This document shows positions 18,613-21,333 of a DNA stretch of 64,000 bases, in pieces (the first letter of the stretch is position 1; each line of letters begins with the position of its first letter). Where the stretch lies: NCBI RefSeq assembly GCF_000021965.1, contig NC_011832.1, forward strand, positions 1,054,001-1,118,000. Reading direction: 5' to 3'. This DNA comes from Methanosphaerula palustris E1-9c (GTDB lineage Archaea; Halobacteriota; Methanomicrobia; Methanomicrobiales; Methanospirillaceae). A program made the position numbers and the translations under genes. Under the pieces are notes generated by a model. That model had not been told where the DNA came from and made no database searches. It saw only the letters and a program-made list of their open reading frames with translations.

Positions 18613-18665
18613 AAAATTATAAATAGCAACATTATTTAATCATTTGATGTTACATTGTATCAAAT
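18613..18665 (+). promoter_or_regulatory. promoter and palindrome of the cbiMNOQ operon
   Basis: AAAATTATAAATAGC (18613-18627) is a strong TATA box. About 20 bases on, ATTTGAT (18642-18648) and ATCAAAT (18659-18665) form a perfect 7-base inverted repeat with a 10-base spacer, placed where transcription should begin. It may be an operator for a metal-responsive repressor. I see no cobalamin riboswitch here. Confidence 0.5.
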
Positions 18666-18690
18666 TAGTATTACTTGATGAGGTGAAATC

Positions 18691-19335
18691 ACGCACATTC
18701 CAGACGCATTCATACCGATTGATCAAGGCGTAGTCTACTGGATCATTGCTCTGGTCTTCGTCGCTCTGGCTCTCCGCTGGGCAAAGAACGAACTGACTGA
18801 AGAGAAGATACCCCTGGTCGCGGTGTTAGCTGCCGGGATCTTTGCGATCATGGCCTTCAACCTCCCGGTTACGATGGGGACGAGCGGGCATCTGCTCGGT
18901 GGGGCGCTCGCAGCGATCCTGCTCGGCTCCCCGTTCGCTGCGGTCTTCATCCTTTCGATGGTGCTGATCGTCCAGGGAGTGATCTTCGGTGACGGTGGGC
19001 TTACCACGATGGGTGCGAATATCATCAACATGGGTGTGATCGGCGGGTTCGTCGGGTTCTACTCTTTCCACGGGCTGATGAGAGTCACCAAGAGTTTTAA
19101 CCTATCAGCCTTCATCGCAGCCTGGCTCGCCTGCTTTATCCCGGCGCTTGCCTGTGCACTTGAGCTGTTTATTGCAGGCACGTTCCCCCTGGTACCAGGG
19201 ATGATTGCAATGGGTACCTACCATGCCGCAATTGGTCTCATCGAGGGAGCGATCACCGTCGTGGCTCTGCATCTCGTCATGAACGCTCGTCCTGATATTG
19301 TTGTGACGCAACAGGGGGCGCCTCTTCATGGATAA
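18691..19335 (+). CDS. cbiM: cobalt/nickel ECF transporter substrate-specific subunit CbiM, apparently starting at ACG
   Basis: This S component of 214 residues begins (M)HIPDAFIPIDQGVVYW and has TMGTSGHLLGGALAAILLG with the His residues of the metal site and QGVIFGDGGLTTMGANI. The N-terminal Met-His-Ile is needed to bind Co or Ni in CbiM/NikM. The codon for that Met is ACG (18691); a TGA in the same frame at 18679 excludes an upstream start, and no ATG, GTG or TTG precedes the conserved part. GAGGTGA stands 4 bases before the ACG as SD. An ATC at 18688 is the only other near-cognate choice. cbiN overlaps the end by 8 bases. Confidence 0.85.
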   Translation, partial: THIPDAFIPIDQGVVYWIIALVFVALALRWAKNELTEEKIPLVAVLAAGIFAIMAFNLPVTMGTSGHLLGGALAAILLGSPFAAVFILSMVLIVQGVIFGDGGLTTMGANIINMGVIGGFVGFYSFHGLMRVTKSFNLSAFIAAWLACFIPALACALELFIAGTFPLVPGMIAMGTYHAAIGLIEGAITVVALHLVMNARPDIVVTQQGAPLHG

Positions 19336-19660
19336 CCGTACCTTTCTTATTGCAGGGATCTTCGTGGCAGTACTGATTGCGGTGGTCGCAGTCTTCCTCG
19401 CTTCGAGCGATCCCGATGGGCTGGAGAGTACAGCCCTGATCATCCAGGGGGATAAGACCCTGACTGGTGATACCCCACAAGGTGCCCAGGTGAACGAGGA
19501 TGTCCCCGACAGGTTCGTCTATGAGGCGCCGATGAAGGATTACTCACTCGGTGGCCGTCTCGGGTCGACCGGTGGCATCATCGCAATGGTATTAGGTGTG
19601 CTTCTCTCCCTTGGACTCGTCCTTGGGGCGACAAAGATACTTGCACGTCCAAATAGATAG
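19328..19660 (+). CDS. cbiN: CbiN-like PDGLE-domain subunit of the cobalt/nickel transporter
   Basis: This 110-residue protein has two membrane segments (about 7-25 and 83-103) joined by an outer loop that carries SSDPDGLES, the PDGLE motif found in CbiN and in NikN/CbiMN fusions. It assists metal insertion through CbiM. The start overlaps the cbiM stop by 8 bases, so the two are translationally coupled. The loop is longer than in bacterial CbiN. Confidence 0.85.
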   Translation: MDNRTFLIAGIFVAVLIAVVAVFLASSDPDGLESTALIIQGDKTLTGDTPQGAQVNEDVPDRFVYEAPMKDYSLGGRLGSTGGIIAMVLGVLLSLGLVLGATKILARPNR

Positions 19661-19687: not shown

Positions 19688-20521
19688 ATGCACCTGATCG
19701 AAACCAGAAACCTCTCGTACCAGTACACATCCAGCCGAAAGGCCCTCGACGGTGTCAACTTTTTTGCCCCCCGGAATTCTCGGATAGCCGTGATCGGTTC
19801 GAACGGTGCCGGCAAGTCGACCCTCTTTCGGCACTTCAACGGGATCCTGACACCGAGCAGCGGTCAGGTGCTGGTCAGAGGCGAACAGATCACCAAGAAG
19901 AACCTGAAGGAGATTCGAAAGTTCGTCGGCCTGGTCTTCCAGAACTCGGATGATCAGATCTTCTCCCCGACTGTCGAACAGGATATCGCATTCGGGCCGA
20001 CCAACCTCGGCCTCGATACAGAGACTGTGGAGCACCGGGTCAGTTCTGCACTCAAGATGCTTGGGATCGAGCACCTTCTGGATCGCGTTCCGCACCATCT
20101 ATCGGGCGGGGAAAAGAAGCGGGTTGCCATCGCCGGTGTGATCGCGATGGAACCAGAAGTGCTGGTGATGGACGAGCCGACGGCCGGCCTCGATCCCGAA
20201 GGGAGGGACGATCTGATCCTGTTCATGAACGATCTCGTCAAGACCTATGGGATGACGGTGGTCTTCTCGACGCATGAACTCGACCTGATTCCTTCAATGG
20301 CGGATTACATCTACGTGATGGACAAGGGCAGGATCTGTGCACAGGGGACCGTTGAGGAGATCTTTCTGCAGGAGGACCTGCTTCGACGTGTCCACCTGAC
20401 GATGCCGGTGCTTCCAAAGTTGATCCGAACCCTGCAGAACCAGGGAATCGAGATTTCGATGGCCTATACCTACGAGGAGGCTGAGGCGGCCTTTTTGGAA
20501 GCTTTCAACGGACGAGCATGA
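19688..20521 (+). CDS. cbiO: energy-coupling ATPase CbiO
   Basis: This 277-residue ABC ATPase has Walker A GSNGAGKSTL, Q-loop VFQNSDDQIFSPTVEQDIAFGP (diagnostic of ECF ATPases), signature LSGGEKKR, Walker B VLVMDEPTAGLDP and switch His in FSTHELD. It powers CbiMN together with CbiQ. The start at ATG 19688 gives the usual MHLIETRNLSYQY opening; a TTG at 19676 in the same frame is possible and neither has a strong SD. The stop overlaps cbiQ as ATGA. Confidence 0.93.
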   Translation: MHLIETRNLSYQYTSSRKALDGVNFFAPRNSRIAVIGSNGAGKSTLFRHFNGILTPSSGQVLVRGEQITKKNLKEIRKFVGLVFQNSDDQIFSPTVEQDIAFGPTNLGLDTETVEHRVSSALKMLGIEHLLDRVPHHLSGGEKKRVAIAGVIAMEPEVLVMDEPTAGLDPEGRDDLILFMNDLVKTYGMTVVFSTHELDLIPSMADYIYVMDKGRICAQGTVEEIFLQEDLLRRVHLTMPVLPKLIRTLQNQGIEISMAYTYEEAEAAFLEAFNGRA

Positions 20522-21333
20522 TCGAAGAACTCTTCGCCATCGAAAAGGAGGCGTTCCGGGAAAGCCCGCTTCACCGACTCGATGCCCGCGTGAAACTGAT
20601 CATGACATTTGCAGCCATCATCGCTCTGGTCTCCTATCCGATCTCCACCCCGGTGTACCTGCTCGGTGCTGTCTTCGCTCTTTTCTACCTGGTACTCTGG
20701 GTGATCTCGGGCCTCTCTCCGCTGGTATATCTGGCCCGGCTGCTACTGATCCTCCCGTTTGGCCTCTCGATCATGGTGCTCCAGGTCTTCTTTCCGAACC
20801 GGTTCTTCCCTGGCACCGATGCACTCTTCTCCCTTCCGTTCGGAATTACGGTCTATGCGGGGTCAGCGCAGTTCGCCCTGATCCTGTTTGTGAAGTTTCT
20901 GCTCTGCATCTCGTTCATCATCCTGCTCTCGTCGACGACCAGGATGCAGGATATGCTCGTCGGTGCCCGGAGGCTTGGCTTCCCCTCTGAGTTCACGCTG
21001 GTCATGGGGATGATGATACGGTACCTGTTCGTCTTCGGGCAGATGTTCTTTCGGATCAAAAACGCGCTTGAAACCCGGTGTTTCAACGCGTTCGATCGGT
21101 CGCTGCCTTACCGGTACCGGTTGCGACAGTTGGGCTACACGATCGGGACGATGTTCATCCGCTCGTACGAACAGGGGGAGCGAACCTACGTCTCGATGCT
21201 CTGCCGGGGATATGGTAAGGACGCGTTCCTCTTCGTCCCGCCAAAGTCTCTTCAGGTAGGTGAGTGGCTGGCGCTCATCGTCGGGCTTCTGGTCGTGATT
21301 GTAGCACCGGTCGCGGTGTATCTGTTCCATTGA
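20518..21333 (+). CDS. cbiQ: ECF transporter transmembrane subunit CbiQ
   Basis: This 271-residue T component has HRLDARVKLIMTFAAII at the start, about five membrane segments, and the coupling-helix region with ARRLGFPSEF and the second arginine motif MLCRGYG near residue 228. It couples ATP hydrolysis by CbiO to metal entry through CbiM. Gene order M-N-O-Q is complete. In a methanogen the metal is probably Co (for corrinoids) or Ni (for F430); sequence alone does not decide. Confidence 0.93.
   Translation: MIEELFAIEKEAFRESPLHRLDARVKLIMTFAAIIALVSYPISTPVYLLGAVFALFYLVLWVISGLSPLVYLARLLLILPFGLSIMVLQVFFPNRFFPGTDALFSLPFGITVYAGSAQFALILFVKFLLCISFIILLSSTTRMQDMLVGARRLGFPSEFTLVMGMMIRYLFVFGQMFFRIKNALETRCFNAFDRSLPYRYRLRQLGYTIGTMFIRSYEQGERTYVSMLCRGYGKDAFLFVPPKSLQVGEWLALIVGLLVVIVAPVAVYLFH

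Follow-up and report, generated by a model that had tools for sequence, protein, structure and literature searches.

An ACG codon in the start position of cbiM in Methanosphaerula palustris, possibly a weak start beside a GTG-started duplicate

Introduction

Which codon starts the cbiM gene of the methanogen Methanosphaerula palustris E1-9c? The product of the gene is the substrate-specific S component of a nickel/cobalt ECF transporter, and the metal site of CbiM/NikM proteins uses the N-terminal Met1-His2. In the published sequence of the strain, ACG occupies the start-codon position of cbiM (18691-18693 of the window, the whole 64,000 bp stretch of DNA analyzed here). An earlier note on this DNA had located the start at this codon, with ATC as a less likely choice, and had raised the possibility of a sequence error.

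Results

The cbiM start site

The features of the locus are the following:

18617..18625, forward strand: TATA-box-like TTATAAATA, putative cbiM promoter (by consensus; a similar AT-rich box is aligned in the remote copy described below)
18676..18681, forward strand: TGA TGA, paired in-frame stops directly 5' of the start (from the sequence)
18680..18686, forward strand: Shine-Dalgarno sequence GAGGTGA, complementary to the 3' end of the genome's 16S rRNA and identical in the remote copy
18691..19335, forward strand: cbiM, S component (PF01891, NF004902)
19328..19660, forward strand: cbiN, starting at an ATG that lies inside cbiM, with an 8-base overlap (PF13190, NF004930)
19688..20521, forward strand: cbiO, ATPase, start ATG 19688 (NF010171)
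20518..21333, forward strand: cbiQ, T component (PF02361, TIGR02454)

The cbiN, cbiO and cbiQ genes are all intact and co-located with cbiM, which comprises 214 codons and a TAA stop when counted from ACG. Window CbiM matches PF01891 over its full length (184.8 bits, profile positions 1-205 of 205) and NF004902 with 323.6 bits against a cut-off of 219. For cbiO, the NF010171 match begins at residue 5 of the mechanical open reading frame from TTG 19676, which places the start at ATG 19688 and not at the TTG.

The cbiM frame reads TGA TGA GGT GAA ATC ACG CAC ATT CCA GAC GCA TTC at 18676-18711. Re-reading bore out the earlier description of this interval, with TGA at 18679, then GGT GAA ATC ACG, and no NTG before the conserved part: no ATG, GTG or TTG lies in frame between the upstream stop and the conserved HIPDAF, and the first in-frame NTG 3' of ACG is GTG 18823, 44 codons into conserved CbiM. 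The two in-frame TGA codons rule out an N-terminal extension in the cbiM frame; a hidden upstream start or a signal peptide is excluded by this adjacent pair together with the non-coding leader. The 16S rRNA gene of the genome ends GGATCACCTCCT, and GAGGTGA, which had been described as lying at Shine-Dalgarno distance, is indeed a seven-base match to its complement, with a spacing of 4 nt to ACG. A Shine-Dalgarno sequence at the proper distance and the absence of any standard start from the allowed interval are what is expected of a near-cognate start.

The protein sequence is in keeping with this placement. In the NCBIfam alignment the His of window CbiM falls on position 2 of NF004902, so that exactly one residue, Met1, is missing, which ACG would supply. 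The solved homologues 4m5b, 4m58 and 5x3x also align with window CbiM from Met1-His2. The protein retains His2, and the His of its GTSGHLLG aligns with the His of GTTAHAIG in 4m5b; Met1 of the metal site would depend on initiation at ACG. A further CbiM paralogue in the genome (L005:1492-1530, approximately G000:C1:1683898 onward) begins Met-Ala-His-Ile-His-Leu-Pro-Asp-Gly, and removal of its Met would yield an N-terminal Ala-His, a possible variant of the Met1-His2 site.

Upstream, TTATAAATA is putatively the TATA box of the cbiM promoter. Between this box and the Shine-Dalgarno sequence lies an inverted repeat, ATTTGAT-N10-ATCAAAT (18642-18665), the right arm of which is not conserved in the remote copy. 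Half-sites of the GTAATAC/GTATTAC kind occur in this interval in many cbiM orthologues and may form an operator bound by a metal regulator.

A two-codon frame, ATG AGG TGA (18678-18686), overlaps the Shine-Dalgarno sequence in both cbiM copies and stops 4 nt before the start. It could allow re-initiation at cbiM, but it is not general among cbiM orthologues and is probably a by-product of the Shine-Dalgarno sequence. A rescue at the level of mRNA, by such re-initiation or by C-to-U editing of the start codon, strikes us as scarcely credible; C-to-U editing of mRNA is not known in archaea.

A GTG-started duplicate of cbiMN

The same chromosome has a second cbiMN pair near 2,744,722 (L117:6645-7692, equal to G000:C1:2744644-2745691). 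It aligns with the window only across the leader, cbiM and cbiN (86.6% over 1048 bp), its CbiM shares 95% amino acid identity with window CbiM, and neither cbiO nor cbiQ lies beside it. A catalase-peroxidase-like gene, identified by eye, is found near the remote pair (L117:9866-12070). The remote cbiM has the leader GAGGTGAAATT, with the same GAGGTGA, followed by a GTG start codon, and this arrangement fixes the start-codon position of window cbiM at the present ACG. The GTG-started copy, which the earlier note had missed, gives the firmest indication of where cbiM starts; together with approximately 220 orthologue sites and the solved homologues, it backs the placement at ACG.

ACG differs from GTG by two changes and from ATG by one. 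As the usual codon in orthologues is also ATG, the window codon probably derives from it, and the GTG of the remote copy probably represents a separate change.

The second copy also bears on other starts in the frame, ATC 18688 or the internal GTG 18823, either of which we regard as very improbable. ATC is in frame and one base from ATG, but it lies 1 nt from the Shine-Dalgarno sequence and would give Met-Thr-His, the intervening Thr spoiling the Met1-His2 metal site. The remote cbiM has ATT in its place and yet starts at the following codon, and the orthologues L011 and L081, with the near-identical leader GGTGAAATC and the spacing kept, use the following ATG; ATC thus keeps its rank below ACG. 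GTG 18823, as the first standard start, may be the choice of gene finders, but a start there would cost the protein its first 44 residues and with them the metal-binding N terminus; these residues match PF01891 from position 1.

ACG in relatives and elsewhere in the genome

In 80 named loci from genome contigs, the codon before CAY ATH CCN GAY is ATG in 64 and GTG in nine; a GTC match in L070 is a chance match elsewhere in the locus and not a cbiM start. A class-wide pattern, which reveals every start-position codon not beginning with G, gave approximately 150 sites in 140 genomes, with ATG or TTG everywhere except in window cbiM. The combination of Shine-Dalgarno sequence and ACG at cbiM was found in one of 232 class genomes, M. 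palustris itself. The search for ACG in orthologues that the earlier note had proposed therefore came back empty: the codon is present only in M. palustris among the class genomes compared, which included no congeneric Methanosphaerula.

The genome was surveyed with pattern searches for one Shine-Dalgarno motif, GAGGTGA-N3-5-ACG, and the stretches around the matches. There are 42 such sites, all of which were inspected, and only at cbiM does a long recognized protein follow an ACG that has a nearby in-frame stop and no NTG ahead of the conserved part. Among the rejected sites, L149 is a downstream gene read from inside the preceding gene, L165 has ATG immediately after ACG, and the frames at L156, L130 and L142 look spurious. 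As no other of the 42 sites looks like an ACG-started gene, the ACG of cbiM is a private, single-gene event, and within the GAGGTGA motif M. palustris appears to have no habit of ACG starts. A literature search for archaeal ACG starts found nothing relevant.

Constraint on the window copy

The two cbiM copies are sister sequences in the trees (support 1.0 and 0.995), which dates the duplication to within the M. palustris lineage. They differ by 50 synonymous and 11 replaced codons (dN 0.023, dS 0.45, dN/dS approximately 0.05); for cbiN, dN is 0.10 and dS 0.61. Window cbiM contains no stop or frameshift, and none of 79 near-invariant columns is broken in window CbiM alone. Residues peculiar to window CbiM as against the remote protein include Phe123, Arg131, Lys134 and Ser135. 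The branch to the window copy is longer than that to the remote copy, both in nucleotides (0.097 vs 0.048) and in amino acids (0.044 vs 0.015). Synonymous and replaced codons, however, number 20 and 4 on the window branch and 9 and 2 on the remote branch, and the replaced-to-synonymous ratio is not raised. This parallel rise of both codon classes, combined with the lack of private residue loss, indicates that the window copy has been under constraint during most of its history after the duplication. Neither a disrupted frame nor relaxed constraint, the marks of a pseudogene, is seen in window cbiM, although the start could have been lost too recently to show. Window cbiM has lower GC3 (0.667 vs 0.737) and codon adaptiveness (0.633 vs 0.685) than the remote copy; these values weakly fit a lower expression of the window copy but may also reflect drift.

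Reliability of the base call

The genome may truly have ATG or another NTG at this site, a single T having been miscalled as C in the consensus; this is an unlikely explanation that nevertheless carries real weight. The 2,922,917 bp genome was obtained from Sanger and 454 reads at a coverage of only 9x (PMC4645200). A single base change gives back the commonest orthologous codon, ACG is absent from all relatives examined, and window cbiM is without any sign of decay. The near-identity of the copies could complicate consensus calling, but confusing the two would not yield ACG, as each has its own bases around the site (AATCACGCACATTCCA in the window, AATTGTGCATATTCCT in the remote copy). The genome was, moreover, finished, and few such errors are expected over approximately 2,800 start codons. 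The typical 454 error is an indel and not a substitution, which also speaks against a misread T.

Discussion

We favor the explanation, at just under an even chance (about 0.48), that the cbiMNOQ operon is intact and that the ACG of cbiM is weakly initiated by Met-tRNAi, a weakness tolerated through the remote GTG-started cbiMN. We infer initiation at ACG, low output and compensation by the paralogue as follows. The start codon of cbiM, an NTG and most simply ATG, would have mutated to ACG by a single T-to-C change in this lineage alone. The archaeal 30S subunit with a strong Shine-Dalgarno sequence pre-positions the start region, and the strong, correctly spaced sequence upstream of cbiM would still set initiator Met-tRNA on ACG. 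CbiM would then still begin Met-His, as its metal site requires, with a much reduced output. The weak start would be tolerable because the second cbiMN pair can supply the S component, and such backup may be the most economical account of how ACG could have become fixed. A minimal cobalt transporter consists of CbiM and CbiN (PMC7689651). That M. palustris uses ACG as a working start by means of a strong Shine-Dalgarno sequence, in a copy of low output that coexists with a duplicate started at GTG, is a tentative proposal that falls somewhat short of even odds.

Weak starts are strongly disfavored in archaeal initiation: aIF1 tests the codon and makes complexes on non-AUG mRNA less stable (PMC6237735), and on a very short leader in Haloferax GUG was weaker than AUG by a factor of 5-37, with UUG undetectable (PMC4574771). 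The aIF1 check and the weak Haloferax starts suggest that ACG is poor, but perhaps not nil with a seven-base Shine-Dalgarno match. The undetectable UUG, on the other hand, implies that ACG could be effectively off, which counts against weak initiation, as may the lack of any other species with ACG and the longer branch of the window copy.

Such discrimination also lends substance to a recent silencing of the window copy, in which the mutation is real, no useful translation takes place, the remote cbiMN carries the function and the frame has not yet decayed. The redundant remote pair, the longer window branch in both trees, the lower codon adaptiveness and the 137 pseudogenes counted in the genome paper (PMC4645200) agree with this scenario, which we nonetheless consider rather improbable: the gene has no frameshift, stop or private loss of a conserved residue, with low dN/dS since the duplication, cbiO and cbiQ, which only the window operon has, are intact, and cbiM shares its last bases with cbiN. 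Judged by sequence, weak use, consensus error and silencing are the three surviving readings.

The finding is a well-defined oddity of one gene in one strain and not a new system. If real and functional, weak initiation at ACG would provide a natural test of the start-codon strictness of the archaeal ribosome under strong Shine-Dalgarno pairing, with its control already present in the cell, namely a GTG-started gene that is nearly identical and has the same leader. Gene finders restricted to NTG would truncate or miss such an ACG-started gene. If the codon is an error, it is a fixable fault in the reference genome.

Comparison with known systems

Window CbiM resembles the group-I cobalt/nickel ECF S components CbiM/NikM (PF01891; 4m58, 4m5b, 5x3x) in its full-length family match, in the alignment of its HIPDAF one residue after the start of the NCBIfam profile, and in being followed by cbiN-cbiO-cbiQ; it departs from these relatives in its ACG start codon, theirs being ATG, GTG or TTG. 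The closest likeness within the genome is to the remote cbiMN (G000:C1:2744721 onward), which shares the leader and Shine-Dalgarno sequence and encodes the 95% identical CbiM, but differs from the window operon in its GTG start and in having no cbiO or cbiQ alongside. Natural initiation at non-AUG codons is familiar from Escherichia coli, where infC and pcnB start at AUU. For Halobacterium salinarum, PMC4574771 cites a report of a leaderless gene that starts at GUC. As in these prokaryotic cases, a near-cognate codon replaces the standard start in window cbiM; unlike them, it is a middle-base mismatch in a leadered methanogen gene with a strong Shine-Dalgarno sequence, and is not conserved between species.
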